Assembly (NCBI RefSeq): GCF_021650975.2
Contig: NZ_CP091285.1
Coordinates: 682,001 to 746,000, forward strand
Source: Flavobacterium jumunjinense
GTDB taxonomy: Bacteria > Bacteroidota > Bacteroidia > Flavobacteriales > Flavobacteriaceae
Direction of reading: 5' to 3'
DNA: 64,000 nt
This document shows, piece by piece, positions 46,962 through 64,000 of this stretch; position 1 is the stretch's first letter; each line of letters begins with the position of its first letter. The position numbers and the translations under genes are program-made. The notes beneath the pieces were generated by a model. The model did not search any database. It was given only the letters and a program-made list of their open reading frames with translations, and was not told the origin of the DNA.

Positions 46962-48308
46962 TTACTTCGCTTTCTCTGTCTTAGATTTTCTACTGAACAT
47001 ACTTTTAAACTGATAAAAGAAACGTTCAATCAAACGTAAATCTTCTGTTATTATATCTGCCGAACCAATCATTTCTTGTTGGAATATAATTTTCTTGTCG
47101 TAAGAAGTATCTAATCCGTTTGGTAAACTAACATCAATTAACAGATTACCATCTTTATCTGGTGTTGCCGAAATATTTTTCACTATCCCTTTAATAATTC
47201 CAAATTCTGTATCTGGGAAATTTGCTAATCGAATATTTACACTTTGACCCGCTTTTAACTTTCCAGAGTTTTGAGCTACTGCTTTCACTTTTCCTACATA
47301 GACTTCATTATCGATTGGAACTACCGAAAAAACTTGGTCACCTGCGCTCACCGTTTGATTTTCCGCCCACAACTGCATAAAAGACACCTTTCCTCGCATT
47401 GCAGTTCTTAGAACAAAATTTAACTCCCAATCTTTTACCGCTTTTTTCAATTGAAAAAAAGCTTGAATAACATTACGTTCTAAATTAATTGCATCTTTTG
47501 TGGAATTAATTTTTGTTGTTTTACTACTTCTGTTAAGCTCATTTAATGAAGATTTTAATTGTGATATTGAACTTAATAAGTTTTTATAATTCTTCTGAGA
47601 TTGTAAATAAGACATTTTTTGCTTCTCAAATTCTTGATCTGCAATTACTCCATTTTTATATAAAGTTTCATATCTATTCAAATCATTCTTTTGAAGCTCT
47701 AACTCTGTCAAGTTTATACTCTTTTGCGATTCTAACAAAGACAAACGCTCACTGATTTGTCTTGCTTCAAAACCTTGTGCAATAGTTTCTACTTGATAGG
47801 GTTTTAATTGTTTTTGCAATTCTTCTGCACTATATTCTTTTTGAAAAATCGCAAATTGACTTTCTACATCGCCAAATTGTGTATACTGCAACTTTTCAAA
47901 CGGAAAAGGTGTTCTACTTAAATTAATTGTATCTAAAATACTTTTCAATAAGAATACATCTTTATAATTTGCAGAATTTTCTATAACCGCAAGAGGCGTA
48001 CCTTTTTCAATAACCTGATTATCTTCAATTAAAATAGTTTCTATTCTACCAGAAGTCCTAGCTGTTAATTTTTCTGGGGGAACAAGAGTCGTTATGGTTA
48101 TTTGCGTTGAGTTGACATCTGGATACTTAATAAAATAGGAAAAAAGCAATACTAATAATACTATTATGAGTATCAATAAATTTCCCCATCGAATCATCCA
48201 ATGCGGAATTTTAGTTAGTATTTCTTGAACTTGCTCACTTCTTAGCTCTATATTGATGGCCGCTGAAGTTTCTGTATTTGTAGACGGAATATTATCGTTT
48301 GTTGGCAT
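46962..48308 (-). CDS. HlyD-family secretion adaptor
   Basis: A 448-residue membrane-fusion protein. It has one helix at about residues 42-65 (NLLILIIVLLVLLFSYFI), a lipoyl-like half (ARTSGRIETILIEDNQVIEKG), a long coiled coil (about 130-270) and a beta-barrel part. It pairs with the C39-type ABC exporter encoded 129 bp upstream and would link it to an outer-membrane channel. No TolC-like gene is in the window. Its cargo should be the double-glycine peptides of this locus. Confidence 0.92.
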   Translation of the reverse strand: MPTNDNIPSTNTETSAAINIELRSEQVQEILTKIPHWMIRWGNLLILIIVLLVLLFSYFIKYPDVNSTQITITTLVPPEKLTARTSGRIETILIEDNQVIEKGTPLAVIENSANYKDVFLLKSILDTINLSRTPFPFEKLQYTQFGDVESQFAIFQKEYSAEELQKQLKPYQVETIAQGFEARQISERLSLLESQKSINLTELELQKNDLNRYETLYKNGVIADQEFEKQKMSYLQSQKNYKNLLSSISQLKSSLNELNRSSKTTKINSTKDAINLERNVIQAFFQLKKAVKDWELNFVLRTAMRGKVSFMQLWAENQTVSAGDQVFSVVPIDNEVYVGKVKAVAQNSGKLKAGQSVNIRLANFPDTEFGIIKGIVKNISATPDKDGNLLIDVSLPNGLDTSYDKKIIFQQEMIGSADIITEDLRLIERFFYQFKSMFSRKSKTEKAK

Positions 48309-48437
48309 TTTCTTTCTTTGTAGATTATGTTACAGTTATTATAAATTAGTTCTTTTTCTGAAAAAGTATTGAATTTCTGGTTACTCAAAAAGAACTTCCA
48401 TAATTTCAAAGTACTTCATCAGGAGTACAAATTTCGG

Positions 48438-50630
48438 CTAAGTTCCGAGCTGTAATTGATTCTTTACTAATTCATAATAACTTCCTTTTTTCTCTATTAA
48501 TTCCGTATGAGTACCTGTCTCTATAATTTTTCCTTTTTCTAGAACTACTATTTGATCCGCATTAATCACCGTACTTAATCGATGTGCAATAACCAAAACT
48601 GTTTTGTCTTTGAAAAATACATTTAGCTTTTCCATAATTTCTTTTTCGTTATTAGAATCTAAAGCACTTGTTGCTTCATCAAAAAAGAGCATTTCTGGAT
48701 TTTTATAAACCGATCTTGCAATTAAAAGTCTTTGTTTTTGCCCTGTACTAATCCCTACACCTTCTGAACCAATTTTAGTATTATATCGTAAAGGATAATC
48801 ATCAATAAAATCTTTAATATTGGCAACATTGGCAGCATAATCTAATCTTTCTTTATCAATTACATCTACTCCAATAGCAATATTATTAGCAATTGAATCG
48901 CTAAATATAAATCCTTCTTGCATTACACAACCAACATGATTTCTCCATGCTTTTTGTGATAAATTACTTAATGACGATTTTCCTAAGGAAACATCGCCTT
49001 CACTAGGTTCGTAGAATTTCAACAACAACTTCATTAATGTTGTTTTTCCACTTCCACTTGTTCCTACAATTGCAGTAATTTTCTTAGCTGGAATTACCAT
49101 ATTAAGTTCTTTCAAAACATTTGTATCGGAACCTAAATATCGAAAAGATAAATCTTTAATAATTATATCTTCATCACAAGGAATTTCTGTTAACTTATCT
49201 TTTTCTCCTTGAACTTCATCATCCATTTCATGAATTTCAGACAATCTAGCCAATGATATTTTAGCGTCTTGCAATTCTCTAATGAATCCAATTAATTGTA
49301 CAATAGGACCATTTAAAGTCCCTACAATACTTGTAATTGCCATCATTTCTCCAATCGTTAACTCACCGTTAATTACAGAAAGTGCAGAAACAAAAATGAT
49401 GAATATATTTTTAAGTTCATTTATAAAGTTAGAACCGATACTTTGAGTTTGCTCTAGCACTAAACCTTTTAAAGAAACCTTAAACAATCGTGCTTGAATA
49501 TATTCCCAGCCCCATCGTTTTTGTTTCTCTGCATTGTGCAACTTTATTTCTTGCATTCCATTTATCAATTCAATTACCTTACTTTGTTCTTTACTGACTT
49601 CTGAAAAGCGTTTATAATCTAAGACCTCTCTTCTCTTTAAAAATAGAATAACCCATAAAAAATAGAGAAAACTACCTACAAAAAATATAGCAAATATACT
49701 TAGGTTATAGTAGGCTAAAACTCCACCCATGATAATCATATTAATAAAAGAGAACAACACACTTAACGACGATGTTGTTAAAATTCGTTCTATTCTATGA
49801 TGGTCATTTATTCTTTGCATTATATCTCCTGTCATTTTCACATCGAAATAGGAAATTGGCAAGCTCATTAGTTTAATAAAGAAATCGGATATTAATGAAA
49901 TATTAATTCTAGTAGAAAGGTGTAATAAAATCCAACTACGAATTAATTCGAGTCCTGTACGTCCAAAAAACAAAAACAATTGCGCAATCAAGACAAGATA
50001 AATGAAATGTATATTTTGATTATGTATTCCAACATCAACAACGCTTTGTGTTAAGAAAGGAGTTATTAATTGCAACAGACTGACTGCAAAAAGTCCAATT
50101 GCTAATTGTATTATAAATGCTTTGTATTTAAAAACATATTGCGAAAGAATTCCAAAACCGTATACCTTTTTTTCTTCAAGATCTGATTCAGATTCATGAA
50201 AATTCGGAGTCGTTTCTAATAATAAAGCAATTCCTTCTTCTGTTGTTTTATCTGCGTTGTTACCTATCCAAAACTTCAAAAACTCAGTTTCAGTATATTC
50301 TATCAAACCAATAGCAGGGTCAGACACATAATAAGTCCCTTTTTTAATTTTATACAAAACCACATAATGATTGTGATTCCAATGTAGAATACAAGGTAAG
50401 GGAGCTTCTTCAAGCTTTTCTAAAGACAATTTAACACCTAAAGAACGAAAACCAATCTGTTCTGCAGCATCACTTAGAGTAAGTAAGTTACTACCTTCTC
50501 TAGTTGTCTCCGAAAGCTCTCTTAACTTTTGAGTGTTAAGCAGTCTCCCATAATGCTTAGCTATAATTTTTAAACAAGTAGGACCGCAGTCTTTACTCTC
50601 TGTTTGTGTATAATGAGGAAATTTTTTCAA
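48438..50630 (-). CDS. C39-peptidase-containing ABC transporter (PCAT)
   Basis: A 730-residue transporter with three parts. The N-terminal C39 peptidase has Cys15 in SKDCGPTC, His88 in NHNHYVVL and Asp104 in VSDPA. A six-helix membrane domain spans about residues 160-440. The ATPase has Walker A GTSGSGKTT, signature STGQKQR and Walker B MLFFDEATSALD. Such exporters cut leaders after a double glycine and export the core. At least nine peptides with such leaders lie within 11 kb, so this is their processing and export pump. Confidence 0.95.
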   Translation of the reverse strand: MKKFPHYTQTESKDCGPTCLKIIAKHYGRLLNTQKLRELSETTREGSNLLTLSDAAEQIGFRSLGVKLSLEKLEEAPLPCILHWNHNHYVVLYKIKKGTYYVSDPAIGLIEYTETEFLKFWIGNNADKTTEEGIALLLETTPNFHESESDLEEKKVYGFGILSQYVFKYKAFIIQLAIGLFAVSLLQLITPFLTQSVVDVGIHNQNIHFIYLVLIAQLFLFFGRTGLELIRSWILLHLSTRINISLISDFFIKLMSLPISYFDVKMTGDIMQRINDHHRIERILTTSSLSVLFSFINMIIMGGVLAYYNLSIFAIFFVGSFLYFLWVILFLKRREVLDYKRFSEVSKEQSKVIELINGMQEIKLHNAEKQKRWGWEYIQARLFKVSLKGLVLEQTQSIGSNFINELKNIFIIFVSALSVINGELTIGEMMAITSIVGTLNGPIVQLIGFIRELQDAKISLARLSEIHEMDDEVQGEKDKLTEIPCDEDIIIKDLSFRYLGSDTNVLKELNMVIPAKKITAIVGTSGSGKTTLMKLLLKFYEPSEGDVSLGKSSLSNLSQKAWRNHVGCVMQEGFIFSDSIANNIAIGVDVIDKERLDYAANVANIKDFIDDYPLRYNTKIGSEGVGISTGQKQRLLIARSVYKNPEMLFFDEATSALDSNNEKEIMEKLNVFFKDKTVLVIAHRLSTVINADQIVVLEKGKIIETGTHTELIEKKGSYYELVKNQLQLGT

Positions 50631-50678: not shown

Positions 50679-52328
50679 TTAATTGACGTTTATATCTTTT
50701 AACAATAATTCGTTATTATCTTTATCCTTAATAGTCAGAAAAAAATTACCTTTAGGTATTTCTAAAGTAATTTTAAAGTCAACTACTTTTTTAATTCTAC
50801 TTATAATCGGAATACTTCTTGAGTTATACTTTACATACTTTTTTGTTTCATAAAAACTAACAAGTACTTCTTGCCCTTCTATTTCTTTAAGAATAGGATC
50901 ATTAATTGTAAATTTAGTTACATCGAAAAACTCAGAAAATGAAGGCTTTATATTATTAATCAAAAAGTAATCAACATTACAATTTACTTTTTCGACACCA
51001 GCAAACTCCTTTGATTCAAAAAACAATAGTTCTTTAGAAACATCTGAGACAATTTCAACTTGATCAATAGTTAAAGGATCTAACCCTGTTTTTTCCTTAA
51101 ATAATTCTGCCATTCTTTTATTTGAAACATTATCTGCCTTTTCTAAAATATGATCTATTCCAGCATATACAAAAATTTTTGCCGAAGAATCTTTATCAAT
51201 TATATACTTCAAATTTTCTGCTTGTACTTCTTCTCTATTTGTACTATCAAAATCATCATATCCAATTATTTCAAAGCCTAAGCTACATGCTTCTTTAATA
51301 AGGTTATTAAAAAAAGGCTCTCTGGTATAATAGCCCGATGTTTTGATTGGAAATTTTCTGCTGTTTATTAAACTATCTTGTCCTTTCTCTAATGCTTCAA
51401 TAGCTAAATACTTATATCCTTTCTCTCTTAAAGGCTTTAACAATCTATATGCTAAAACTCTATGCTCTGGTTTCCAATGCATCTCATTCAACATTAAAAC
51501 CTTATGATTCTTTGAAATTTCAGCTATCTTATGTACTATAGAATCTTCAATCTGATTACTCTCTAATAAATTCGCTTTTTGACTACTCAATAAATCGTTA
51601 AAGTAACTTCTGCGTTTGTTTTCAAACTTTTTTATTAATTCTTTATATCTATAATATTCAGTGTCGAATGATAAAACCGTTGTTAGTAATTGAAATTTTG
51701 TCCATTCATTCTTTTCATCTTTATCGATTGGAGCATTGTCAAATTTATTCATTATAAATAAATGATTGTCTTCATTTTTATATGAATTAAATATATCCAT
51801 ATAACTTAAGGCATTCTTCTTAACAATATTAAATTCCATTGAATTGATTATACTTTTTGCATCTTGCAAGATAGACGAATTTGATTTATGTTTTCCTATA
51901 CTTTTAATTAGCACATAAAAAGATTGAATACCATCCGTTTTCTCATATAAAACTAAATTACTTATTGTATCATTAACTAACATTTTGGTAGTTACATCTA
52001 ACTTTTTCTTTGATAATTTAAATTTCTTTTTTTTTAGAAAAAGAAATAATTCATAAAATGGAATTTCAGTTGTCTTTCCATAAACTAATAAATCCTTATT
52101 ACAAAACTTATAAAAATCTAAAACAGAAGAGCCCTTACTCAATTCATTAATTCCATAATACTTAACATCACCAAAGAAACTGCCACTTACATTTAAAGGA
52201 TAATTATAAAATTCTGAGCCATTAAAATAATTAAATTTCCTGTTTTTTTTGACAGTATTACAAGATATTATCGAAAAACACACAATAAAGGTGAGTACAT
52301 TATTTCCAATTATTTGTTTTAGGGTCAT
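50679..52328 (-). CDS. Tiki/EreA-like lipoprotein of the RiPP locus
   Basis: A lipoprotein of about 549 residues. I chose the Met at 52328, which gives a standard lipobox (CFSIISC); Met at 52346 and a longer frame to 52427 are also open but overlap the SPASM gene more. The middle part has LNEMHWKPEHR, YLAIEALEKG and FVYAGIDHIL, a pattern of paired Glu and His residues seen in the TraB/Tiki/ChaN/erythromycin-esterase-like superfamily. Enzymatic activity is plausible but unproven. It starts inside the SPASM gene end, so it belongs to the maturation operon and might process, modify or protect against the peptide. Confidence 0.65.
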   Translation of the reverse strand: MTLKQIIGNNVLTFIVCFSIISCNTVKKNRKFNYFNGSEFYNYPLNVSGSFFGDVKYYGINELSKGSSVLDFYKFCNKDLLVYGKTTEIPFYELFLFLKKKKFKLSKKKLDVTTKMLVNDTISNLVLYEKTDGIQSFYVLIKSIGKHKSNSSILQDAKSIINSMEFNIVKKNALSYMDIFNSYKNEDNHLFIMNKFDNAPIDKDEKNEWTKFQLLTTVLSFDTEYYRYKELIKKFENKRRSYFNDLLSSQKANLLESNQIEDSIVHKIAEISKNHKVLMLNEMHWKPEHRVLAYRLLKPLREKGYKYLAIEALEKGQDSLINSRKFPIKTSGYYTREPFFNNLIKEACSLGFEIIGYDDFDSTNREEVQAENLKYIIDKDSSAKIFVYAGIDHILEKADNVSNKRMAELFKEKTGLDPLTIDQVEIVSDVSKELLFFESKEFAGVEKVNCNVDYFLINNIKPSFSEFFDVTKFTINDPILKEIEGQEVLVSFYETKKYVKYNSRSIPIISRIKKVVDFKITLEIPKGNFFLTIKDKDNNELLLKDINVN

Positions 52329-53289
52329 AATTACATGTGTTTTCATGAAAATATTTTTTGTTCTTTTGAATAGGAATTCTATTATCAGGACAAATATATC
52401 TGAATTCACAAACGTTACAAACTTCAATCATATCTTTATTAATTTTCCATAATTCTTGAAAGGAATTTGAAGCGATAATTTCAGATATTACGTCTTTTTC
52501 AATATTCCCAAAAACCTTTTCATGATTAATATAATTCTTAACGTCTCCTTTATTATTTATGTAGACTTTTCTATTAAAAAACAAATTATAATTCTTAGCT
52601 TCCATGAACGCATCAAGATTTGGGACTAAATCATTTATACCACTAATCTGTTTTGATAAAAATTCATTACAACTACCTGGATAAAAATTAATCCATTGAT
52701 TATTGGAGACTATATCATTAGGAGCGTTAAAGAAATTGACATCTCTTAGCCTAGGAAACCTAGCAAAAAAATGCTCTATATCTAAACTATCTTTTGAATA
52801 TTCGGAAATAAGACTTACTACATTTAATTTAGATTTCTTTAAAATTTCAAGTACTTGTTCAATCACATCGAATTTCATATTTGATTTTGACAGCAAAACC
52901 AATTGTATACATCCTAAATTATCAATTTCATTTAATAATTTAATCTTAAAATCCTGTAAATCGTCAATTTCTAAAAAAACAATATCACTTAAAAACAAAT
53001 AATCCTTTTCTAAATCTAAATCTAAAAAGTGATTGGGTTCATCAGTAAGAAAAATAAGCTCATTTTCGATTAAATAGTTTAGATTCCTTGTAACTAACTC
53101 TTCATAATCTAAATAATCTTCATATATAACTTCTATTTTTTTATCAAAATAATCTTGTAACATATCTGTCAAAGAATTGGAAATAAAATATAGTTCCGAC
53201 CTTTGAAGGTCATATATAGCAGTTCTATTAAATCCTTTCACAGGAATACAAGAATTGTAAAATTTAAAATATTTATCTTTATCAATCAT
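52300..53289 (-). CDS. SPASM-domain peptide maturase of a grasp-with-spasm system
   Basis: A 329-residue protein with a C-terminal SPASM-like cysteine cluster: CNVCEFRYICPDNR followed by HENTCNYDP. The N-terminal two thirds look like a degenerate radical-SAM barrel, but no CxxxCxxC motif for the SAM iron-sulfur cluster is present; only Cys14 and a few scattered cysteines occur. This matches what is known of the SPASM partner in grasp-with-spasm systems. Its gene overlaps the 61-residue gene upstream by ATGA. It probably helps the ATP-grasp enzyme recognise or modify the precursor. Confidence 0.8.
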   Translation of the reverse strand: MIDKDKYFKFYNSCIPVKGFNRTAIYDLQRSELYFISNSLTDMLQDYFDKKIEVIYEDYLDYEELVTRNLNYLIENELIFLTDEPNHFLDLDLEKDYLFLSDIVFLEIDDLQDFKIKLLNEIDNLGCIQLVLLSKSNMKFDVIEQVLEILKKSKLNVVSLISEYSKDSLDIEHFFARFPRLRDVNFFNAPNDIVSNNQWINFYPGSCNEFLSKQISGINDLVPNLDAFMEAKNYNLFFNRKVYINNKGDVKNYINHEKVFGNIEKDVISEIIASNSFQELWKINKDMIEVCNVCEFRYICPDNRIPIQKNKKYFHENTCNYDPKTNNWK

Positions 53290-53471
53290 ATGAATGCAGG
53301 TTTGTAAAAGGAATTACACCTCATTTTTTGAGTTTGATGAAAATCTGAAGCTACAAAAGCCAAATCAATATTTTTTATTGGTTGATTTTCCTTTCCTTCA
53401 ACAAAAAAAACATTAATGGGTAACTTATCTATAAATTCACTATCAATATGATTTATTAATTTATTTTTCAT
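53286..53471 (-). CDS. Small protein between ATP-grasp and SPASM genes
   Basis: A 61-residue protein whose start overlaps the ATP-grasp stop by 11 bp and whose stop overlaps the SPASM start by four bases. The double overlap argues that it is translated. It has no signal sequence, no double-glycine leader and no clear core. The only notable features are the central FFVEGKENQPIKNIDLAFVA and a basic C-terminal CNSFYKPAF. It may be a subunit or recognition element of the maturase, or a remnant of a larger protein. Confidence 0.6.
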   Translation of the reverse strand: MKNKLINHIDSEFIDKLPINVFFVEGKENQPIKNIDLAFVASDFHQTQKMRCNSFYKPAFI

Positions 53472-54426
53472 TATTATCTATTAAATAGTTAGACACTTTT
53501 TGATGTAGATTAAAATTACATGGAATGCTTGTCATTCCAAATTGTCCTGATGGATTAACCTCTAAAAAATAATATTCATTATTTACAGATTTAATAATAT
53601 CAATTGAACCAGTATTTAACCCCATTTTATTCATCAATTTAATTATTTTTTCTTCAATTACTAAAGGTAATTGATACCTACCAACTCTATTTGGCTTATC
53701 AATATCATAATTTCGAAAATCAATTTTAGTTTTTTCATTGTTTTGTGAAAAAATTACCATTGTATAGAGCTTATCATCAAGAAAAAAAGTTCTTAATTCA
53801 TATTTTTTATTTATATACTCTTGAAACAATGATGGACTAAAGCTATCAGGAAGACCGTCAAGTGATTTTATTATCTGTGTAAAAAAAGGGTAATTCTTAT
53901 TATTAAATTCAATATGCTTTCCCTCTCCTATTGACTTAGAAATAATTAAATTATTATTCTCCTTAAAAAAAAAATCTAACTGTTTTAAACTAGAAGTAAT
54001 CAAACTGTTTGGTGTTTTTAAACCTATATCACTAGCATGTTTTAAAATTTCTATTTTTGTTAACATGTTAGATCTTTTAAATAGCCATTTTTTTTCTTCT
54101 AATAATTTAAAAATTAAGTTTCTAATAACTGAAAATTCAGAATATATATATCGAGTTAAATCATCTTTTTTACCAAAAAAATCTTCATACGTTTTAAAAA
54201 AACCAAATTTCCTCATCCATACAACTTTAACGTCCGAGAAATAGATCTTCTTGTTGTCCCTAACTAAGTAACTTTTGTCAAGGTCATTTGGCGCTAAGTT
54301 AAGTGTAACTAATCCAGACATTATGTCCTCGTCGTTTAATCGAAAAAAATCAGCATTACGAGATTGTAAATTTTCAACGACTATCTGTGTATCAGTATCC
54401 CTAGGAGTACTTAATATTAATATCAT
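53461..54426 (-). CDS. ATP-grasp peptide maturase (grasp-with-spasm type)
   Basis: A 321-residue ATP-grasp ligase. The N-terminus ILILSTPRDTDTQIVVENL and the early FRLNDED, the lysine-containing segment LIISKSIGEGKHIEF and the metal-binding EVNPSGQFG near the C-terminus define the family. Enzymes of this group (graspetide synthetases and relatives) form ester or amide bonds between Asp/Glu and Thr/Ser/Lys side chains of a precursor. A candidate precursor lies 68 bp upstream with a terminator between. The SPASM partner follows directly. Confidence 0.88.
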   Translation of the reverse strand: MILILSTPRDTDTQIVVENLQSRNADFFRLNDEDIMSGLVTLNLAPNDLDKSYLVRDNKKIYFSDVKVVWMRKFGFFKTYEDFFGKKDDLTRYIYSEFSVIRNLIFKLLEEKKWLFKRSNMLTKIEILKHASDIGLKTPNSLITSSLKQLDFFFKENNNLIISKSIGEGKHIEFNNKNYPFFTQIIKSLDGLPDSFSPSLFQEYINKKYELRTFFLDDKLYTMVIFSQNNEKTKIDFRNYDIDKPNRVGRYQLPLVIEEKIIKLMNKMGLNTGSIDIIKSVNNEYYFLEVNPSGQFGMTSIPCNFNLHQKVSNYLIDNNEK

Positions 54427-54493: not shown

Positions 54494-54658
54494 CTACAGA
54501 TCATCCCATTCTTCATCAGAACCGTCATCACCATTACTTGGAGCACCAGGCCCAACTGTAACTGTGTTTTGACTAAATGTGTTTGCAGCTAATCTACGTC
54601 CTCCGTAAACCGAATTAACCTCAACTTTATGAGATTGAAAATCTTCTAATTTTTTCAT
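54494..54658 (-). CDS. Candidate graspetide-like precursor peptide (LEDF leader)
   Basis: A 54-residue peptide. The leader has KKLEDFQSHKVEV followed by a YGG-RR junction at about residues 18-22. The C-terminal part has Thr/Ser residues (ANTFSQNTVTV, then a GPGAPS turn) and ends in a run of acids (DDGSDEEWDD). Hydroxyl residues plus clustered Asp/Glu are the raw material for ATP-grasp ester cross-links. It lies just upstream of the ATP-grasp gene, with a terminator between, and about 41 bp downstream of the shared promoter block. Its leader differs from the neighbouring GG peptides but matches the peptide at 58090 in the motif LEDFxxHK. Confidence 0.8.
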   Translation of the reverse strand: MKKLEDFQSHKVEVNSVYGGRRLAANTFSQNTVTVGPGAPSNGDDGSDEEWDDL

Positions 54659-54698
54659 AATAATAAAATTTGTTTTTAGTAAATACTCAAAAAATTTT

Positions 54699-54739
54699 AA
54701 GTCAATTGAGACCTTGACTATCGTTGCAACAATATTTTG
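54699..54739 (-). promoter_or_regulatory. Shared promoter/operator block, copy 1
   Basis: The plus-strand sequence AAGTCAATTG, then TTGACTAT and GTTGCAACAATAT, reproduces the block seen before three other peptide units. It ends 41 bp before the 54658 start codon. Read on the minus strand, a TTG lies 17 bases before TCTCAATTG, a degenerate -33/-7 pair. The rest of the 327-bp gap (to 54985) is AT-rich, with nothing else recognised. Confidence 0.65.
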
Positions 54740-55355: not shown

Positions 55356-55393
55356 AATTAAAATAGTATTGTTTGTTTACTACAAAACGCTTA

Positions 55394-55425
55394 AAGTCAA
55401 TTGTAGCTTTTGACTATCTATTTTG
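55394..55425 (-). promoter_or_regulatory. Shared promoter/operator block, copy 2
   Basis: AAGTCAATTGTAGCTTTTGA followed by CTAT; the inverted halves AGTCAA and TTGACT flank a nine-base centre. Read on the minus strand it contains TACAATTG, one mismatch from TAnnTTTG. It ends 39 bp before the 55355 start codon. The extension with GTTGCAAC seen in copies 1 and 3 is absent here. Confidence 0.65.
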
Positions 55426-56159: not shown

Positions 56160-56200
56160 AATTAAAATATTAGTATTTATTTGTTTACTACAAACCTTTT

Positions 56201-56240
56201 AAGTCAATTGTAGTTTTTGACTATCGTTGCAACAATATCT
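56201..56240 (-). promoter_or_regulatory. Shared promoter/operator block, copy 3
   Basis: AAGTCAATTG, TTTTTGACTAT and GTTGCAACAATAT in order, nearly identical to copy 1. On the minus strand TTG, a 17-base spacer and TACAATTG fit a -33/-7 pair. It directly abuts the 3' end of the VKOR gene and lies 42 bp before the first six-cysteine precursor, allowing the peptides to be expressed apart from the VKOR gene. Confidence 0.7.
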
Positions 56241-57770
56241 TTACACCAAAACTGGTTGTCCTTCTTCTAAGTCGGAAAGGAAATACCTTAATTCTTTAAT
56301 TTCATATTCATTGGGTATAATTTTATTATTTACCAATTTTACTGGCGTATAATTAAAATCATTACTTAAGCACCATTCGTATTGGCTCCTTAAATTATCA
56401 CCCACTGATAACGAAATAAGCTTTTGACTCCATTTTTCTGTCCAATCCTCTAAACTCATATTTTGAATATGCCAATCGGAAATAGCTTCTTCTATTTTAT
56501 CTGGTAAATCTTGATCTATTTGAAAGAGGTTTTCAGCAATTGTATAAAAAGGATTTTCCTTATTATCTGGATTCAAATTAAAAAAGATAGCCAGCTTAAC
56601 TCTTTCTTTATTTGCTTTCATTAGATCGATTGCCTCCTTAAAAGCAGTATGACAATGACCACAACTTGGACTCAAAATGAGAGTAACTACTACTGGAGCA
56701 GATTGAAGTCCTAATTCTATTTTAGAAATTGTAGTAAGTTCTTCTACGTTTACCACTTCTTTTTGAAGTGCATTAAAGACCGTAAATCTTCGTTTAAATT
56801 TCGTTAATTCTAAAGTTTCCTTCTTACGCTTTTCTAAGTCGAAAAAATATGGTTTAATAAAAAACCAGATTGGAACAACTACAACAAAAGACAGTAGAAA
56901 TACCTCGTAATTAAAATCGATAACACTTTCATATAAAAGAAACAAACTAGATTGAGCAATCAATAAGACTGAAATTGCCAAACACAGAACGCACCATTTC
57001 TTTAATTTTATTTTCTGTAACCAAAGCGAATAGAGGATTAATGGAATAGAAAGAACACTTATAAAGCTTAATGCTATTAGTGCTTTCTCGTTGATGAGTG
57101 CTATCAGGATACCGAAACTAAAAAAAAGAATAGGTAAATCTGAAAAATCAAGCCAGGTTGTAATGGCTGCAGATTCTGATTTTATAACAGAATCGCACGA
57201 TGTGTTTTTAGATAAAGTGCATATTTTAGAAGCTATTCCGTCTGTTTTATGCAGTTTTTCATCTATAATTAATACACTAACAAAAAAACCAATTAGAAGT
57301 ATTGCTAAATGAATAGACGAAAAGAACGTTAATAATTGCATTTCGATTATAAACAACAGAAGCAAAGTGATACCTAATAAAACGATTTTATTATTAAACA
57401 AATTGATTTTTTCAGGAACAGCCTCGAGATTAGGTTCAATGGCTACAACAATTCCATTCCAATTGTTTAAAAATTCATCCGTCGTTATTTTTTGCTTGCT
57501 TTTGCCTTCCGTTTCAACAGCAATGCTATTCTGTTCTTTTTTTACGAGTGTAACCTCGTCCTTAAATAGCGCTAAAAAAGATTCTGGCAATTCTAAGAAT
57601 TGTTCCTTTGGCACTTTAGCAGCTATATTCTCAATAGACAATAAATCGAACGTATCGGTTATAGCAAAAAGACTAGGATAATTTGGATGAGATAAAAATA
57701 AATTTTCAAAATCATTACTTTCTTTATTATAATTATTATTGTATAAATACTTCTCAATTATTGCTTTCAT
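56241..57770 (-). CDS. VKOR-thioredoxin fusion with C39-like N-domain
   Basis: A 509-residue membrane protein. Residues 1-115 resemble a C39-like fold (NYPSLFAITDTFDLLSIENI, NNWNGIVVAIEP) but lack the catalytic Cys. Residues 125-320 form a VKOR domain of about five helices with Cys184, Cys192 and the redox pair WCVLC (Cys260 and Cys263). Residues 345-509 are a thioredoxin/DsbA-like domain with CGHC (Cys370 and Cys373). Such fusions drive disulfide formation in the periplasm. Its position upstream of cysteine-rich precursors strongly suggests it oxidises them on export. The N-domain may bind leaders. Confidence 0.9.
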   Translation of the reverse strand: MKAIIEKYLYNNNYNKESNDFENLFLSHPNYPSLFAITDTFDLLSIENIAAKVPKEQFLELPESFLALFKDEVTLVKKEQNSIAVETEGKSKQKITTDEFLNNWNGIVVAIEPNLEAVPEKINLFNNKIVLLGITLLLLFIIEMQLLTFFSSIHLAILLIGFFVSVLIIDEKLHKTDGIASKICTLSKNTSCDSVIKSESAAITTWLDFSDLPILFFSFGILIALINEKALIALSFISVLSIPLILYSLWLQKIKLKKWCVLCLAISVLLIAQSSLFLLYESVIDFNYEVFLLSFVVVVPIWFFIKPYFFDLEKRKKETLELTKFKRRFTVFNALQKEVVNVEELTTISKIELGLQSAPVVVTLILSPSCGHCHTAFKEAIDLMKANKERVKLAIFFNLNPDNKENPFYTIAENLFQIDQDLPDKIEEAISDWHIQNMSLEDWTEKWSQKLISLSVGDNLRSQYEWCLSNDFNYTPVKLVNNKIIPNEYEIKELRYFLSDLEEGQPVLV

Positions 57771-58089: not shown

Positions 58090-58287
58090 ATGAAAACTAA
58101 CATTTTTGCTTTAGAAGATTTTTTCAACCATAAAATGGGGAACAAACAAATGACTAAAATAGTAGGTATGATTGATCCTAAAAAGCCAAAACCAAAACCT
58201 GAATTAAATGATACGGTTAGTAGCGAAGATAATGGTGATGGAAAACCAAACGATCCAAAACCTACAATAGCGGTGATAATTCTTTAA
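58090..58287 (+). CDS. Candidate graspetide-like precursor peptide, second copy (LEDF leader)
   Basis: A 65-residue peptide started at the second Met (MKTNIFALEDF); an upstream Met at 58063 would give 74 residues. The segment ALEDFFNHKM matches KLEDFQSHKV of the peptide at 54494, so the two share a leader type. The rest contains Pro/Lys repeats (KKPKPKPEL), then NDTVSSEDNGDG and PNDPKPT, giving hydroxyl and acidic residues as possible cross-link partners. It is on the opposite strand to the ATP-grasp gene, 3.6 kb away, and converges with the AraC/TPR regulator gene with a 4-bp overlap of stop ends. Confidence 0.65.
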   Translation: MKTNIFALEDFFNHKMGNKQMTKIVGMIDPKKPKPKPELNDTVSSEDNGDGKPNDPKPTIAVIIL

Positions 58288-60023
58288 AGAACCGTAGTAT
58301 CTTTTTCAATTTTTTTTATAAACTGAACAGGTGTAACGCCTGTTCTTTTATTAAAAGACTTTGCAAAAGACACAGCGTTTTTAAAACCTACAGTTTCTGC
58401 AATTGCCTGGGTTGAATATTTCCTAAATGTCGGATTGGTAATCATTTCCTCAATAGCGTAATTAATTTTCAACTCATTTGAATATTCGCTAAATGATTTT
58501 TCAAATCTTTTATTCACTACATAAGACAAGTAAGTCGTATTTGTTTTTATTTTTTTTGCGGTGTTTTGCAAATTAAAATCTTCTCGTAAAAAATAATTCG
58601 ATTTTTCTAGCTGTATCAATTTCTCTACTATCTCATTTTCCTTTTCTTCATCGATGCTTAAAGAAGTATCGTTCACTACAGATTCATTTCTAACTTGTTG
58701 TTTTACTTCTGGTTCTATAACAGTTTCTTTCTTCTGTTTAAATTCTTCTATCAGTTTATTCACTCTACTATTTGCCTGTTTCTTTCCAATATAATTTTTA
58801 TATAAAAAATACACAAGACTCAAAAAAACAATACCGATTAAAATTTGAATTAACAATCGAATTACAACTCTAATTCTCACTTCCTTTTTAAGGAATTCAA
58901 CATCTTCTTTTACTTCTTTATTGGCTATAAACAAATTAACATTTAATGTTTCTTCTACTATTAAGTTTTCGCTTTTTTTAAATTTAGCATTATATAACTC
59001 TAGATAGCGTTCTGCTTCTCTATAGTTTTCATATTGATTATGGATTTTAGCCAAATAATACATGGTGTTTATTTGTTCTAGTCTATTTGTCTCAAAGCTA
59101 GAAATTGAATCTACTTTATTAAAATAAACCAATGCTTTTTCATATTTTTTTTGACCATAATTAACATACCCTAAATTATAATAAAGCGTAGTCATTTGAA
59201 TCATTAAGTCATTTTGTTTTGCTAAAACTAAAGATGCCAGATATTGTTTTTCTGCATTTTTCAACTGCCCTTTTTTTACATAAATATTGGCCAGATTTGT
59301 TTGTGCTTTTAATTTTCTATCAAATAAATTCTTCGAGTAAACAATTGCTCTATTATAGTAAAATTCAGAGGAGTCAAGCAGCTTTTCATTCTTTTTTACA
59401 TTGTAATAATTTTCATAAAAAGTTGCTAATCTAATATAGATACTACTTTTTGCTTTTAAAAAATTCTCTTTAGTATATAAATATTCTGTTTTATCTAATA
59501 ATCTATCAGATTCTCTTACAGAATAAATAGCCAATTCATAATTTCCTACTTCTGCCAAAATAAGAGCCATATTATTAGAGCATTTTACAGCCAAAATCTT
59601 GTCGTCTACTTCAATTGCTATTTTTTTTGCTTCTTCATAATTTCGAATTGCATCTCCTAACTTTTTTCGTTTCCAATTAATTAATCCTTTAAAATTATAA
59701 ACCTTACTGCTTATTTTTTTCTTCTCTAATGAATTCGCTATTTTGTTAAGATGAATAATTGCTCTTTCTAATGACTTATTACTATCTAATGTGTCTGGGT
59801 ATTTTTTTAATTGATACAAATAGGCCTCTGCTGCAAAAGCATAGGCCAGTTGCGCGTTGCTTTTTGAAGGTTTTATTTTGTCTACATAATAAAACGCACT
59901 ATCTAATTTTCCATTAATATGAAAACTAACATTATCTTGATATTTTATAAAATCTTTCTCGCTTAAGGTCTGAGAAAAAAGGATTTGAGAAAAGAAAAAA
60001 AATAGCAGGGAAATATTTTTCAT
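58284..60023 (-). CDS. Membrane-bound TPR protein with AraC-type DNA-binding domain
   Basis: About 579 residues when started at the Met at 60023, which gives a normal signal sequence (MKNISLLFFFFSQILFSQ). A periplasmic array of TPR-like helices (about residues 20-370) is followed by one transmembrane helix (LLIQILIGIVFLSLVYFLY) and a cytoplasmic AraC-family helix-turn-helix at the C-terminus (STQAIAETVGFKNAVSFAKS, FNKRTGVTPVQF). Such one-component regulators are common in Bacteroidota. It may sense peptides or envelope state and control the peptide promoters; that link is by position only. Confidence 0.88.
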   Translation of the reverse strand: MKNISLLFFFFSQILFSQTLSEKDFIKYQDNVSFHINGKLDSAFYYVDKIKPSKSNAQLAYAFAAEAYLYQLKKYPDTLDSNKSLERAIIHLNKIANSLEKKKISSKVYNFKGLINWKRKKLGDAIRNYEEAKKIAIEVDDKILAVKCSNNMALILAEVGNYELAIYSVRESDRLLDKTEYLYTKENFLKAKSSIYIRLATFYENYYNVKKNEKLLDSSEFYYNRAIVYSKNLFDRKLKAQTNLANIYVKKGQLKNAEKQYLASLVLAKQNDLMIQMTTLYYNLGYVNYGQKKYEKALVYFNKVDSISSFETNRLEQINTMYYLAKIHNQYENYREAERYLELYNAKFKKSENLIVEETLNVNLFIANKEVKEDVEFLKKEVRIRVVIRLLIQILIGIVFLSLVYFLYKNYIGKKQANSRVNKLIEEFKQKKETVIEPEVKQQVRNESVVNDTSLSIDEEKENEIVEKLIQLEKSNYFLREDFNLQNTAKKIKTNTTYLSYVVNKRFEKSFSEYSNELKINYAIEEMITNPTFRKYSTQAIAETVGFKNAVSFAKSFNKRTGVTPVQFIKKIEKDTTVL

Positions 60024-60240: not shown

Positions 60241-60405
60241 TTATGCCCAACCTGGGTCTAATTTACATGCTGTTCCTGCACAATAATAACCGTTAGCACA
60301 ACCGTCGCTTGCACAGTCATGATGATTCTTCCCGCCTTTAATAACTTTTCGTTCTTTACTGGTTAGTATTTGAACGCCTTCTAAACTTCTGATTGCATTT
60401 TTCAT
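60241..60405 (-). CDS. Double-glycine cysteine peptide (peptide F)
   Basis: A 54-residue precursor. The leader MKNAIRSLEGVQ then LTSKERKVIKGG is more diverged than the others but keeps the GG at residues 24-25. The 29-residue core KNHHDCASDGCANGYYC, then AGTACKLDPGWA, has four cysteines (C-x4-C-x5-C-x4-C) and two adjacent His. It lies 100 bp downstream of the 68-residue peptide at 60505 and may be last in the operon. Confidence 0.8.
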   Translation of the reverse strand: MKNAIRSLEGVQILTSKERKVIKGGKNHHDCASDGCANGYYCAGTACKLDPGWA

Positions 60406-60504: not shown

Positions 60505-60711
60505 TTAGAAGCAAACACAAGTTCCAGAATGTGGTCTATATAGCCCTCCTGAATGAGGACCAACTCCACATTGCCATTGTGCAGAACCACAACAAATTGG
60601 ATCAGAAAGATAATAACATCGTATTAATTCTCTTATTGCACCTTCTATATTTTTTTGCTCTCCTTTAGTTAACTCTTGAGCTCCCTTTAAATTTAAAATT
60701 GATTTCTTCAT
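60505..60711 (-). CDS. Cysteine peptide with Gly-Ala cleavage site (peptide G)
   Basis: A 68-residue precursor with the shared leader (MKKSILNLKGAQELTKGEQK) but ending NIEGA, that is Gly-Ala in place of Gly-Gly; C39 peptidases also accept GA. The core has six cysteines: IRCYYL, then PICCGSAQWQC and SGTCVCF, with glycine/His-rich GPHSGGLYRPHSG between. It lies 36 bp downstream of the peptide at 60748, likely in one operon. Confidence 0.82.
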   Translation of the reverse strand: MKKSILNLKGAQELTKGEQKNIEGAIRELIRCYYLSDPICCGSAQWQCGVGPHSGGLYRPHSGTCVCF

Positions 60712-60747: not shown

Positions 60748-60903
60748 TTAATCACAAAATAGGGAACATCTACCAAATGCATTTCTACATTGTCTCCATG
60801 GACATGGCTCTGGCTCAACCTCAATGAAACCTCCTGAAATACTTTTTTGTTCTCCTTTAGATAACTCTTGAGCGCCACTTAGTTTTAAAATTGATTTTTT
60901 CAT
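60748..60903 (-). CDS. Double-glycine cysteine peptide, CRNxFGRC type (peptide H)
   Basis: A 51-residue precursor started at MKKSILKLSG (60903), because that Met aligns with the other leaders. The leader ends SISGG. The core FIEVEPEPCPWRQCRNAF then GRCSLFCD is nearly the same as peptide A at 54986 (CPWRQCRNAFGRC in both), with four cysteines. The two copies sit about 5.7 kb apart in different units. Lack of Thr and a single Ser argue against lanthionines. Confidence 0.87.
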   Translation of the reverse strand: MKKSILKLSGAQELSKGEQKSISGGFIEVEPEPCPWRQCRNAFGRCSLFCD

Positions 60904-60914
60904 TTTATTATAAT

Positions 60915-61100
60915 TTATTGTTGAATTACTAAACCACATGCACTTGTACAACAAACAATACTATCACAGTTTTTCTTAAAAACTCCGTTACAATAGCATG
61001 GAAACGACGTCCCAATTTCTTTGAGACCACCTACAATTTCTTTTTGTGAATTTTTAGATAATTCTTGAGCTCCTTTTAAATTTAAAATTGATTTCTTCAT
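60915..61100 (-). CDS. Double-glycine cysteine peptide (peptide I)
   Basis: A 61-residue precursor started at MKKSILNLKG (61100). The leader ends EIVGG. The 36-residue core LKEIGTSFPCYCNGVF then KKNCDSIVCCTSACG has six cysteines (C-x-C-x7-C-x4-CC-x3-C). It is first in the right-hand peptide unit, 38 bp after shared promoter block copy 4, followed by peptides H, G and F. Confidence 0.85.
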   Translation of the reverse strand: MKKSILNLKGAQELSKNSQKEIVGGLKEIGTSFPCYCNGVFKKNCDSIVCCTSACGLVIQQ

Positions 61101-61137
61101 TTTATTATAATTTAATCGATTACATCTCAAATTATTT

Positions 61138-61179
61138 AAAGTCAATTGAAACTTTTGACTGGTTATTCACAATAATTCA
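61138..61179 (-). promoter_or_regulatory. Shared promoter/operator block, copy 4
   Basis: AAAGTCAATTGAAACTTTTG followed by ACTGG, with TTATTCACAATAATTC after it. On the minus strand TTG, 18 bases and TTCAATTG give a -33/-7-like pair within the AGTCAA/TTGACT dyad. It ends 38 bp before the 61100 start codon. Confidence 0.65.
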
Positions 61180-61200
61180 ATAGTATCTCAATAAAAAAAT

Positions 61201-61407
61201 TTAAGAACAAGCTTCTGTTGTTAAAACACAACACGAATATATAGACGGAATCGTCAAATACTGTTCACAGGTAACAAGAAATCCATAAGGGTAATCATAG
61301 TTTTCGCAAGTAGCACCATTACAAGTACCTCTACCTCCAGAGATCGATTGTTGCATCTTTTTAGACAATTTTTGGGTTCCTTTTAAAGTTAAAATAGATT
61401 TTTTCAT
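61201..61407 (-). CDS. Double-glycine cysteine peptide (peptide J)
   Basis: A 68-residue precursor. The leader MKKSILTLKGTQKLSKKMQQ ends SISGG. The 43-residue core has six cysteines (RGTCNGATCENYDYPYG, then VTCEQYL, YSCCVLTTEACS). It is richer in Thr and Tyr than the others, so it is the peptide most compatible with LanB dehydration. No shared promoter block precedes it; it may be read from the LanB side. Confidence 0.83.
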   Translation of the reverse strand: MKKSILTLKGTQKLSKKMQQSISGGRGTCNGATCENYDYPYGFLVTCEQYLTIPSIYSCCVLTTEACS

Positions 61408-61749: not shown

Positions 61750-62601
61750 TTAACGGTTATTTTTGTAAAACATCGTCTTATAGAAACGAAACAAATGATC
61801 ATAAACTAATAATTCATATTGTCGTTGTCTTGAAGTAAACTGACGGTTCATCATCATGTGAATATGACTGTTCAAAAAAGAAGATAAAGAAACATCTAAA
61901 TCATTCAAAATTACTTGAGCTGCATTCGCAATAGCACTGCTCTTTACAGCAACAGCATTATACACAGGTTCAAATTGAGTTACATCTTGATTCAAGAAAG
62001 GTGCTATTTCCTTTTCTATTTCCCTGTATTGTTTATCTAACTCTTTCTTTAATACTTTGTCTGCATTAAATTCCAGTTTGAAAGAAGTTTGTAGACGATC
62101 TAACAATTTCAGTTTTTCTTCAAGAGTAAGCGAAAAACTAATCAGGAAACGATCAATACTTAAAAAACTAAATAATAAAGGAGTTGAGTCATGCTCAAAT
62201 TGATTTTTAAAAGTTACATAGTGCAACACCAATTCGCTATCGGCTTGAAAAATCGTTTCAGAAAGTGGGTAGGTCGATTCTCCATAGCGTTCAATTTCTC
62301 GCATATACGTATCGGTTTGTATCTTCCAAACCAAATTTTGTTCCTTCACTAAAGAAAATACTTCATTAAAAATAGCTACTACTTCTCCTAAATATTCTGG
62401 CTTTGCAATTTTAAAACGCAAACGCAAATGAGATTCAGGATCGTTATAGCGAATAAAAAACCAAGAAACGATTAATTCATTCTCAATTAAATATGCAATT
62501 TTCTCTTGTAAATAATCTTGCAATACTACATCGGCAGTTCTAACACCACAATAGATTTTATAATACAACCATTCGCTACCAATACTAAATTCCCTTTTCA
62601 T
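61750..62601 (-). CDS. LanB C-terminal-type elimination protein (SpaB_C domain)
   Basis: A 283-residue protein of the thiopeptide-type bacteriocin biosynthesis family. EWLYYKIYCGVRTADVVL opens the domain, YNDPESHLRLRFKI carries the paired arginines of the glutamate-elimination site, and NSHIHMMMNRQF near the C-terminus matches the conserved HxHxNR-like motif. In class I lanthipeptide synthesis this domain removes the glutamyl group to leave dehydroamino acids. Here it is a separate gene, 47 bp after the LanB N-part, as in split dehydratases of thiopeptide systems. Confidence 0.88.
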   Translation of the reverse strand: MKREFSIGSEWLYYKIYCGVRTADVVLQDYLQEKIAYLIENELIVSWFFIRYNDPESHLRLRFKIAKPEYLGEVVAIFNEVFSLVKEQNLVWKIQTDTYMREIERYGESTYPLSETIFQADSELVLHYVTFKNQFEHDSTPLLFSFLSIDRFLISFSLTLEEKLKLLDRLQTSFKLEFNADKVLKKELDKQYREIEKEIAPFLNQDVTQFEPVYNAVAVKSSAIANAAQVILNDLDVSLSSFLNSHIHMMMNRQFTSRQRQYELLVYDHLFRFYKTMFYKNNR

Positions 62602-62648
62602 CTTTTTTTAGTTTAAATCAATACAACATTCAAAATAGTACCCCTCAG

Positions 62649-64000
62649 CTATTCTCTTCCAAAAGAAAACACGAATTGATTGGCATAATGTTTTTTGCTA
62701 CTATCATGAACCACCGAATTTGTTGCAAACAAAAACTCTTCAATTACTACTTTTTGGTTCTTTTTTATAGTTCTCATCAAAATATCAAAACAAATTTCGG
62801 TTTCCAAATCGAGTAACAACGTATTATCACCACTTACAATATTTACATATTTTGGAAGTTTCATTTTTTCTTTCCATAAAACAAACGATGCTCCAAACTG
62901 AACACCTTTCACTTCTTCTGTATAAATATACCATCTTGCCTTAGCCAATATAACCTCCTTATAAACAACTCTCGGAAAACAATTATAATGTTGTTTTAAA
63001 ACGCCCCAATCAAAACGATATACGGGTGCGCTATTTTGTCCTTGTAAATCACATAAAAATTGATAAATAGGCAACGCATTACTACTATAATTATGCGCAT
63101 TCGACAAACAAGGTACAATCTCTTTGTTGAGTCGTTTCGATTTTAAAACAATTGTATTGCGTTCTACAGTAATCCACAAATCATCAATTAGAATTTGATT
63201 TTCGTTTGGCACTACACTGTTCGACAAATACGGAATTTCATACGGTCGCAAAACAGGTCGTCGCAAAATATTTCCCGTTCTCGATTCTGGAATATGTGCT
63301 ACTTCTGCTAAAATAACATCTGGAGCACAAGACGCTTCATGCTGTACAATTTCTTTTGCCAACGCATGAATAGTTGCATCCCCGTTACAAAAACGACCAA
63401 TTAATTTAGCTGCACTATAACTTCCTAACGATTCTAAAACTAGAATTTCGTTGTCTTCTTCTTTAATAATTTCTACCATTGCAGAAAAAGTTGCAGGCAA
63501 ATTAGGTACGGTTTCATTGCTTTTTTTAAAATCGGATTCTTTTAATTCTAAAACAGTTTCATTATTGGCTAATGCTTCTTGCAGTTTTCTTTCTAACACA
63601 TAATCAAAAGAGGTCCAGTTTTCAGTTTCACTAGTAGCATGAGCGCTGTTTATAGGAAGTTTATCCAAAAGTGGGTGCGAATCGTTCATCCTTGAATTTT
63701 GAAGATAACCAATACCAATTTCCGCATCTAAAACCACCGACAAAGGCATCGATTTGGTTTCGTATCGATTAAAAAATGCCTTTCGAAAAGCTTCCAAGTT
63801 TCCGTTTACAGCAGTTTTTTGCACTTGCGATAAAAAACCTATAGCTTGTTTTAGTTTTCTAACGTTAGCTGTATTTATTGTTGCTATTGTTGTAGCACTA
63901 TACAAATCCGTTTGTAATAAATACTTCGGTTCAAAAGCAACATGTAGCTGTTCTATTTTTGAAACAATTGCTTTTGACTGTTCATGATACTGCTGAAAAT
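62649..64000 (-). CDS. Lantibiotic dehydratase, glutamylation part (LanB N-domain, 5' end beyond window)
   Basis: 450 residues are visible and the frame stays open to the right edge, so the true start is outside. LLQTDLYS near the edge and later blocks (IGYLQNSRMNDSHPLLDKL, FCNGDATIHALAKEIVQHE, RPVLRPYEIPYLSNS, CFPRVVYKEVILAKARWYI) are typical of the lantibiotic dehydratase N-terminal domain. It transfers Glu from glutamyl-tRNA to Ser/Thr of a precursor. It ends without the elimination domain, which is encoded separately just downstream. No LanC cyclase is seen in the window. Confidence 0.9.
   Translation of the reverse strand, partial: FQQYHEQSKAIVSKIEQLHVAFEPKYLLQTDLYSATTIATINTANVRKLKQAIGFLSQVQKTAVNGNLEAFRKAFFNRYETKSMPLSVVLDAEIGIGYLQNSRMNDSHPLLDKLPINSAHATSETENWTSFDYVLERKLQEALANNETVLELKESDFKKSNETVPNLPATFSAMVEIIKEEDNEILVLESLGSYSAAKLIGRFCNGDATIHALAKEIVQHEASCAPDVILAEVAHIPESRTGNILRRPVLRPYEIPYLSNSVVPNENQILIDDLWITVERNTIVLKSKRLNKEIVPCLSNAHNYSSNALPIYQFLCDLQGQNSAPVYRFDWGVLKQHYNCFPRVVYKEVILAKARWYIYTEEVKGVQFGASFVLWKEKMKLPKYVNIVSGDNTLLLDLETEICFDILMRTIKKNQKVVIEEFLFATNSVVHDSSKKHYANQFVFSFGRE

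Follow-up and report, generated by a model that had tools for sequence, protein, structure and literature searches.

A predicted hub for the oxidation and export of double-glycine peptides, with an associated pseudoknot-like RNA element, in Flavobacterium jumunjinense

In Bacteroidetes, graspetide clusters of branch 5 are known to encode maturases of the grasp-with-spasm type together with a C39 peptidase-ABC exporter, an HlyD protein and several diverse precursors (PMC8939145, as described in its available text). The bacteroidetocins are antibacterial peptides with a double-glycine (GG) leader and four cysteines; they are encoded with a C39 ABC exporter, and deletion of a thiol oxidoreductase attenuates their activity (PMC6671954, available portions). 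TPR proteins also occur near Bacteroidales loci for ribosomally synthesized and post-translationally modified peptides, with a pheromone-linked role elsewhere (PMC10352776, available portions). Here, we describe a locus of Flavobacterium jumunjinense in which features of these systems meet. It lies in a stretch of 64,000 nucleotides (henceforth, the window), corresponding to positions 682001-746000 of contig 1 in a genome of 4.68 Mb and 2 contigs; window coordinates are used throughout, and domains were called from Pfam and NCBIfam profile scores. Our preferred reading, to which we assign a probability of roughly 60%, is that the locus is a hub that oxidizes and exports a dispersed, bacteriocin-like arsenal of GG peptides, probably under the control of an AraC-TPR regulator, with a peptide encoded antisense to the hub as a candidate pheromone.

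The graspetide part of the locus is of the grasp-with-spasm kind and has already been described. With the published clusters the locus shares ATP-grasp, SPASM, C39 ABC and HlyD proteins and multiple diverse GG precursors, and a 61-residue protein upstream of SPASM occupies the same position as their LPL family. What the window has in addition to those clusters, as the available text presents them, is a VKOR fusion, LanB, an extensive Cys-rich array and an RNA element in common; the main text of that study nowhere uses the words VKOR, thioredoxin or disulfide (PMC8939145). The features held in common with the bacteroidetocins are the GG leader, four Cys, a thiol oxidoreductase and C39 ABC. However, the published bacteroidetocin loci are four-gene regions with one peptide, a protein with five transmembrane (TM) segments and 15-residue leaders, and the accessible account of them includes no HlyD, AraC-TPR, arrays, grasp or LanB genes (PMC6671954). 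The window peptides thus fall outside the bacteroidetocins (class IIf), with leaders of 25 residues and ten open reading frames (ORFs) bearing 4 or 6 Cys; no five-TM partner was recognized in the window gene list, for which no TM scan of all genes was made. The earlier note on this DNA had called such a mixed arsenal unusual. This has to be given up for the graspetide and disulfide parts, which the available text of the two studies already covers (PMC8939145, PMC6671954), but it stands for the three-way mix, which is found in 4 of 296 genomes of the order. The combination of a C39-like VKOR fusion, the RNA element and an antisense peptide was not found in the accessible content of these papers or in the searches made of the open-licence PMC literature.

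All the components named in the earlier note, namely an export pair, a VKOR/thioredoxin fusion, a grasp-with-spasm pair, a split LanB and an AraC-TPR protein, are present by profile scores. Read along the minus strand, the locus begins with a TPR-one TM-AraC regulator (58284..60023, with the ORF reaching 60044 and an ATG at 60023; TPR_12, HTH_18), which is followed by the C39-like/VKOR/thioredoxin fusion (56241..57770; VKOR 49.9 bits), five Cys-containing GG ORFs and graspA (54494..54658), an ORF with an LEDF leader, a GG site and a Thr/Asp/Glu-rich core that ends 67 nt before the ATP-grasp gene and, from this position, is a putative graspetide precursor. Next come the GRASP_w_spasm ATP-grasp maturase (53461..54426; TIGR04192 275.3 bits, cut-off 230), the small 61-residue protein (53286..53471), an ORF that overlaps its neighbors and has no NCBIfam or Pfam match, and, directly downstream of it, the SPASM_w_grasp peptide maturase (52300..53289; TIGR04193 186.2 bits, cut-off 175), so that both adjacent members of the pair exceed curated cut-offs. 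The row closes with a Tiki/ChaN-like predicted envelope protein (ORF 50679..52427, start uncertain, first ATGs at 52346 and 52328), the C39 peptidase-ABC exporter (48438..50630; Peptidase_C39 118.6 bits, ABC_membrane, ABC_tran) and an HlyD-family periplasmic adaptor (46962..48308; HlyD_3 54.7 bits). Gaps between the fusion and HlyD are no larger than 327 nt, and several genes overlap. The Cys motif of the exporter's C39 domain is intact by eye (DCGPTC) and GG-leader peptides are encoded nearby, as in the C39 ABC (PCAT) export arrangement. Upstream of the regulator lie five further GG peptides and then the split LanB, which supplies both LanB parts of a class I lanthipeptide cluster and comprises, again on the minus strand, a C-terminal elimination protein (61750..62601; Lant_dehydr_C 216 bits, TIGR03891 201.6 bits) and an N-terminal glutamylation protein (62649..64000; Lant_dehydr_N 286.3 bits), which continues past the window edge to a complete ORF of 737 aa.

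Conservation in relatives supports the reading of this locus as a hub. The fusion is present in 22 of 100 relatives. In 16 same-genus genomes whose best copy has at least 36% identity, its surroundings (about 20 kb on each side, less at contig ends) define what we call the main loci; in 16/16 of these, the fusion, at least one GG peptide, C39 ABC and HlyD occur together, and AraC-TPR stands alongside in 14/16. The main locus of one relative (G004) has 21 peptide ORFs, of which 20 are distinct. In a set of 60 genomes, a profile of the GG peptides (A2) finds them in 11 of 12 fusion genomes versus 0 of 48 others (Fisher p 3.5e-11), a profile that contains peptides from 5 of the 11 positive genomes and whose hits in G014 and G064 lie near the E 0.001 limit. 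The earlier note's mixed arsenal served by one export pair is therefore supported in the sense that the peptide genes are conserved with the modifying genes; in the main loci, its co-occurrence held for the fusion, peptides, C39 ABC and HlyD and failed for grasp and LanB, to which we return below. Further copies were read outside the main loci: a more distant copy (G014, 30%) has ABC, HlyD and weak peptides, one second copy has ABC and HlyD and no peptide hit (G053b), another has a peptide and neither ABC nor HlyD (G042b), and a third (G004b) combines ABC and HlyD with a LanB pair and a weak peptide.

The peptides themselves form two arrays on the minus strand. ORFs at 54986..55147, 55167..55355 and 55436..55633 have 4 Cys, and those at 55636..55824 and 55971..56159 have 6; on the other side of the regulator, 60241..60405 and 60748..60903 have 4 Cys, and 60505..60711 (with GA in place of GG), 60915..61100 and 61201..61407 have 6. 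The at least nine double-glycine peptides claimed earlier are thus ten ORFs, nine of them distinct, and the single leader with cores of at least five Cys spacings becomes a leader conserved at 66% mean identity over 36 pairs, versus 30% for the cores, with eight spacings; the two LEDF-leader peptides were both located, at 54494-54658 (minus, graspA) and 58090-58287 (plus). Two of the ten GG ORFs are identical because of a perfect 336-bp tandem repeat (55499-56169, offset 335), which leaves the copy at 55636..55824 behind a truncated leader copy fused to it. The peptide arrays seem to evolve by such tandem repeats; the duplication could alternatively be an assembly matter. The core at 60748 closely resembles that at 54986 even though the two belong to different arrays. 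Low in-locus E-values of the GG peptide profile are uninformative, since it was built from the same copies, but the set exceeds chance by its conserved leaders and its recurrence beside export genes in relatives.

VKOR-thioredoxin fusions have the complete set of four VKOR Cys together with a CxxC site in the thioredoxin part. In the fusion described here, VKOR Cys 184, 192, 260 and 263 and thioredoxin Cys 370 and 373 (CGHC) are invariant across 25 sequences. It differs from known fusions in its link to peptide arrays and in an N-terminal C39-like domain lacking the catalytic Cys, which goes beyond the description in the earlier note: the match to the C39 profile does not start before position 24 or 33, which, by comparison with the match of the ABC exporter, lies beyond the catalytic Cys, and no Cys is conserved in this part in the 25 sequences (a few members have one, the window protein none). 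Degenerate C39 domains of type I exporters bind leaders, and, by analogy, the C39-like domain of the fusion may bind GG leaders.

Gram-positive class II bacteriocin regulons use one exporter for bacteriocins and a GG pheromone, with a sensor driving the operon. In the window, the corresponding sensor would be a one-piece TPR-TM-AraC protein with a signal-like N-terminus (by eye), TPRs, a single strong TM segment at about residues 387-405 and a C-terminal AraC domain, and the signal role would fall to the LEDF peptide on the plus strand between the regulator and the VKOR gene (58090..58287; E 2.5e-11 with A3, a profile of antisense EDF-type peptides of which this copy is a member). Cys-free EDF-leader peptides lie antisense in this interval in 12 of 14 relatives having the regulator-VKOR pair, in up to seven copies; none was seen in G038 and G057. 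Across the 60 genomes, 18 of 19 A3 hits fall in the regulator-VKOR interval and the 19th is graspA, with a profile built from peptides of 4 of the 8 genomes hit. Within the host genome, a GG or LEDF peptide adjoins 4 of 6 long AraC-TPR matches. On this sequence evidence, the AraC-TPR protein probably controls the hub, and the antisense Cys-free peptide is a candidate pheromone. In another genome (G248), two regulator ends (by eye) and an antisense peptide precede the RNA element discussed next and a lipoprotein gene, which indicates that the regulator-peptide pair may be a reusable module.

A sign of coordination is a 36-nt element that ends about 25 nt upstream of the ATG. It consists of two interlocked inverted repeats: S1 (AGACAx/xTGTCT; AGTCAA/TTGACT in the host genome) and S2 (about ACTCCAA/TTGGAGT), with AA and a linker of TTAAAATGA. 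A model combining sequence with S2 pairing, and treating S1 as sequence only (R1), was run with strict filters over the 60 and 296 genomes. In the window it marks four minus-strand copies, all of which belong to its training set: 54685..54719 before graspA (32.5 bits, E 1.1e-5), 55379..55415 (41.3 bits, E 1.1e-7), 56187..56222 (48.4 bits, E 2.4e-9) and 61124..61160 (43.5 bits, E 3.2e-8). Small H-type pseudoknots of the preQ1-I type have two interlocked stems and an A-rich linker and lie upstream of a start codon. The window element has the same layout, but it matches no Rfam 15 family up to E 1 in the stretches scanned (window 46000-64000 and two stretches of relatives, L059 and L061, where the only matches over the gathering score are S16-Flavobacteria leaders elsewhere). 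What the earlier note took for one promoter motif is accordingly better described as an RNA-like structure: from its covariation, wobble pairs, strand and spacing, the shared motif is most plausibly an H-type pseudoknot RNA. A reading as promoter boxes at -33/-7 was rejected, as the replacement of TTGAC by CTGAC is accompanied by a corresponding change in the opposite arm.

Evidence for pairing comes from several sides. In 46 distinct aligned R1 hits, an alignment that contains the training copies and was fitted to S2, 95.4% of cells are paired, versus 20-51% in slid registers; 109 cells are changed on both sides versus 37 in shuffles (0/500), 10 of 13 pairs are changed on both sides, and five measures were never reached in 500 shuffles. 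S1 is paired in 92.9% of this alignment, though modelled as sequence only, and G-U pairs are present in the stems. When copies were chosen by the S1 3' arm and linker only, without regard to S2 (29 rows), S2 pairs in 88% versus 75% when permuted, and S1, over all 29 rows, in 72% versus 65% (0/2000 each). S2 covariation is also significant inside single genomes, namely G004 and the host genome (9/2000 permutations each). Hand-chosen alignments agree with the larger one apart from two measures: the number of pair types, given below, and, in one of them, the count of pairs changed on both sides, which was reached in 2 of 500 shuffles. In a scan anchored on start codons, 26 of 97 upstream regions of Cys peptides score at least 11, versus 1.0% of shuffles, and 20 of the 26 show the motif layout; none of 22 control regions, upstream of Cys-free or EDF-type peptides, reaches a score of 9. 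A position-free scan for interlocked stems gave no separation (1198 hits versus 1037-1134 in three simulated sequences).

A short GG, GA or GS ORF follows within 75 nt, with its ATG 17-32 nt after the element, at 37 of 43 R1 hits that were read downstream, by a script rule that picked the wrong ORF for G174 and G198, whose correct ORFs were identified separately. Of the other six, three look genuine and precede lipoprotein or secreted protein genes (two in G248, one in G133), and three look like chance (G004 C7:34574, G172 and G062). Every hit in the host genome (8/8) precedes a GG precursor, graspA and the precursor of a grasp locus at 4.43 Mb included, so that disulfide-type peptides have the element in common with graspetide-type precursors at two grasp loci. 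Over the 296 genomes, R1 hits occur in 18, of which 16 carry the fusion, versus 47/296 overall (p 1.7e-12). That these genes have an element in common suggests that the peptide arsenal is coordinated and has not accumulated by chance. The element also leads to precursors, graspetide-type ones included, that NCBIfam models do not report over cut-off: of 20 small ORFs, none reaches that of leader_Chryseo or TIGR04149 (the highest scores are 17.1 bits, cut-off 23.5, and 17.4 bits, cut-off 25).

Peptides of this kind are also encoded outside the window. A profile search of the host genome found one peptide at a second VKOR locus and 13 further GG peptides, with 4 to 6 Cys each, at ten additional sites; two genomes (G009 and G011) contain a syntenic relative of the pair found at 336 kb. 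Two more grasp-with-spasm loci over cut-off, at 1.57 and 4.43 Mb, each come with a precursor, and the 70 kb around them show no C39 match. The dispersed peptides and the distant grasp loci may use the exporter of the hub.

Taken together, these features suggest the following course of events. Cys-rich and graspetide precursors would be encoded at the hub and elsewhere in the genome, and part of their mRNAs probably carry the pseudoknot upstream of the start codon, allowing shared control of translation or stability. The grasp-with-spasm pair would close ester or amide rings on graspA-type cores, and LanB would dehydrate a neighboring precursor. The membrane-bound fusion may hold GG leaders through its catalytically dead C39-like domain while oxidizing the Cys cores through its VKOR and thioredoxin (CGHC) sites, after which C39 ABC, HlyD and a TolC-type channel encoded elsewhere would cleave at GG and export the products. 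As a one-piece sensor-regulator with periplasmic TPRs, one TM segment and a cytoplasmic AraC domain, the AraC-TPR protein would activate the hub; its cue is probably the neighboring, antisense-encoded Cys-free GG peptide. Most likely, the products would be narrow-spectrum bacteriocins. Behind this scheme stand computed synteny, co-occurrence and gene content, together with RNA covariation and conserved residues; transcription of the element, binding of leaders, export of distant peptides, the enzyme products, the pheromone role and killing are inferred. A more ambitious version is possible but doubtful in our estimate: the element would represent a new cis-acting pseudoknot family that unites scattered precursors of multiple chemistries, both disulfide and graspetide, plus a few genes for secreted proteins or lipoproteins, into one regulon; this would be served by a single hub in which the dead C39 domain recruits leaders and a new kind of peptide sensing by a TPR-TM-AraC protein responds to an antisense GG pheromone. 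Were one hub indeed to mature and export three chemistries, it would constitute a natural multi-chemistry production line. In either form, scattered small ORFs of Flavobacterium and its kin become a defined system. To our knowledge, there are few worked examples of peptide sensing in Bacteroidota, and the pairs of AraC-TPR and antisense peptide make it directly testable.

Several observations weigh against the hub reading. The coverage of the element is limited: it precedes 4 of the 11 window precursors, graspA included; it occurs in 8 of the 16 main loci and is missing from the other 8; and, under the strict filters, 31 of 47 fusion genomes in the set of 296 and 7 of 12 in the set of 60 have no R1 hit. 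Neither does R1 hit the LanB cassette, including its part beyond the window, which means that LanB may be a mere neighbor. On the side of the RNA structure, S2 covariation within G056 alone is not significant (383/2000), S1 covariation is weak within single genomes, and in smaller, hand-chosen alignments the further pair types were reached in 15 and 18 of 500 shuffles. Grasp/SPASM or LanB genes stand beside the fusion in 0/16 main loci. The host genome encodes additional C39 ABC exporters, and no immunity gene was recognized. As for the candidate pheromone, the cleavage site of the window copy is degenerate (GM, not GG), and its relatives carry the NCBI name 'rSAM-modified peptide'.

Among the alternatives, the one that survives best, though we hold it to be rather unlikely, is that the peptides are a signalling or developmental set and not toxins. 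It draws on AraC-TPR genes that adjoin peptide genes at 381 and 634 kb, on further regulators seen by eye near peptides (at 2.90 Mb one of the TPR-LuxR type; at 2.32 Mb a TPR kinase, some 1.6 kb away; in G004 a TPR kinase together with a response regulator) and on the acidic Cys-free GG peptides repeated up to seven times in G042. Yet most products are diverse Cys-rich cores with variable spacing behind a conserved leader, the usual look of bacteriocins, and the 20 distinct peptides at the G004 locus likewise speak for toxins. We favor an antibacterial set with one candidate signal peptide, with killing and signalling as its presumed roles.

It is less probable still that three independent clusters for a disulfide bacteriocin, a graspetide and a lanthipeptide lie side by side in a hot spot, each with separate control and export. 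The isolation of the LanB side fits such a picture: in addition to a mycothiol-transferase-like protein, its surroundings outside the window hold their own AraC-TPR, GG precursor and S8 protease, none of which was in the earlier description, and lack the element; so do the 16 main loci read without grasp or LanB genes and the grasp loci that stand apart at 1.57 and 4.43 Mb. Against it, G333 and G108 have grasp, SPASM, VKOR, ABC and HlyD genes in a head-to-tail row on a single strand (in G333 with AraC-TPR, a GG precursor and LanB on the opposite strand), and the second, more distant VKOR copy of G004 adjoins a LanB pair. Pairwise co-location, counted by eye within 20 kb among the 296 genomes, which were drawn evenly from the order and have ATP-grasp in 46 (29 over cut-off), the fusion in 47 and LanB-C in 45, also exceeds expectation: grasp with fusion in 11 genomes versus 1.7 (plus a grasp remnant in G088), LanB with fusion in 7 (6 without one weak LanB) versus 0.9, and LanB with grasp in 8 versus 1.6, where the test used 11, 6 and 8 and the expected counts assume independent genomes and uniform placement, which lessens their weight for a hub. 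All three chemistries fall within 20 kb in the four genomes G000, G096, G229 and G333. Moreover, independent clusters would hardly share the same RNA element on graspA, a second grasp-locus precursor and disulfide-type peptides, nor would they leave two other grasp loci with no C39 match within 70 kb.

A reading of the conserved dyads as operators that a transcription factor binds in the DNA, and not as RNA structure, is likewise improbable. In its favor, a further upstream palindrome in many copies (21/40) recalls a dimer-binding site, and an AraC-TPR regulator is at hand. Against it, the S2 arms co-vary among copies inside one genome (G004 and the host) with G-U pairs, such that one protein would need to read many words; the interlocked stems and A-rich linker are arranged as in an H-type pseudoknot; the element keeps a fixed strand and a fixed distance to the start codon; and internal cistrons of the arrays also carry it.

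Some minor observations bear on the subjects above. The extra palindrome reaches at least 8 nt in 21 of 40 copies examined, versus 14% in mononucleotide shuffles; in 16 of these its center lies 7-9 nt ahead of the element, and it is absent from some internal cistrons; its letters differ among loci, as seen in the 24 nt upstream of the element (GTTGCAAC, TTCGCGAA, CCTGTACAGG and TCCTGGCCAGGA). One copy (L135, on C7 of G004) precedes a GG peptide that is acidic and free of Cys and is flanked, by eye, by a TPR kinase on one side and a response regulator on the other, and another copy (L151), in a genome with no VKOR fusion at E 1e-20 (G133), has a new S2 sequence and precedes a 114-residue secreted-looking protein. 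No LanC was recognized by eye among the ORFs beside the LanB of the window, and the precursor on that side (L009:7858-8046) has one Cys and scores 11.1 bits with lant_leader_L1a (cut-off 22). A cassette of AraC-TPR, a Pro/Asn/Asp-rich GG peptide and an S8 protease also occurs without LanB (L178:2962-6694); the precursor next to the LanB of the window may therefore go with the regulator and protease instead. A separate, full-length LanB at 1.49 Mb (L011) has its own C39 ABC, three similar 4-Cys GG precursors and two LanC-like ORFs (by eye). A C39 peptidase domain standing on its own at 4.07 Mb (L012:8550-9092; 120.6 bits) is possibly a periplasmic GG protease: it has no ABC part and, by eye, starts like a lipoprotein. 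The Tiki/ChaN-like protein scores just 15.6 bits with Cofac_haem_bdg, under the cut-off of 27.7, and has a relative in the second grasp locus (46.5 bits). No megablast match was found in the plasmid collection, and the closest protein match to the VKOR fusion is from a Flavobacterium sp. (98% identity). Finally, in G229 (L183), alternating genes encode Cys-containing GG peptides and Porph_ging-like proteins (48.6 bits for the one scanned), and the latter are candidate immunity or partner proteins.

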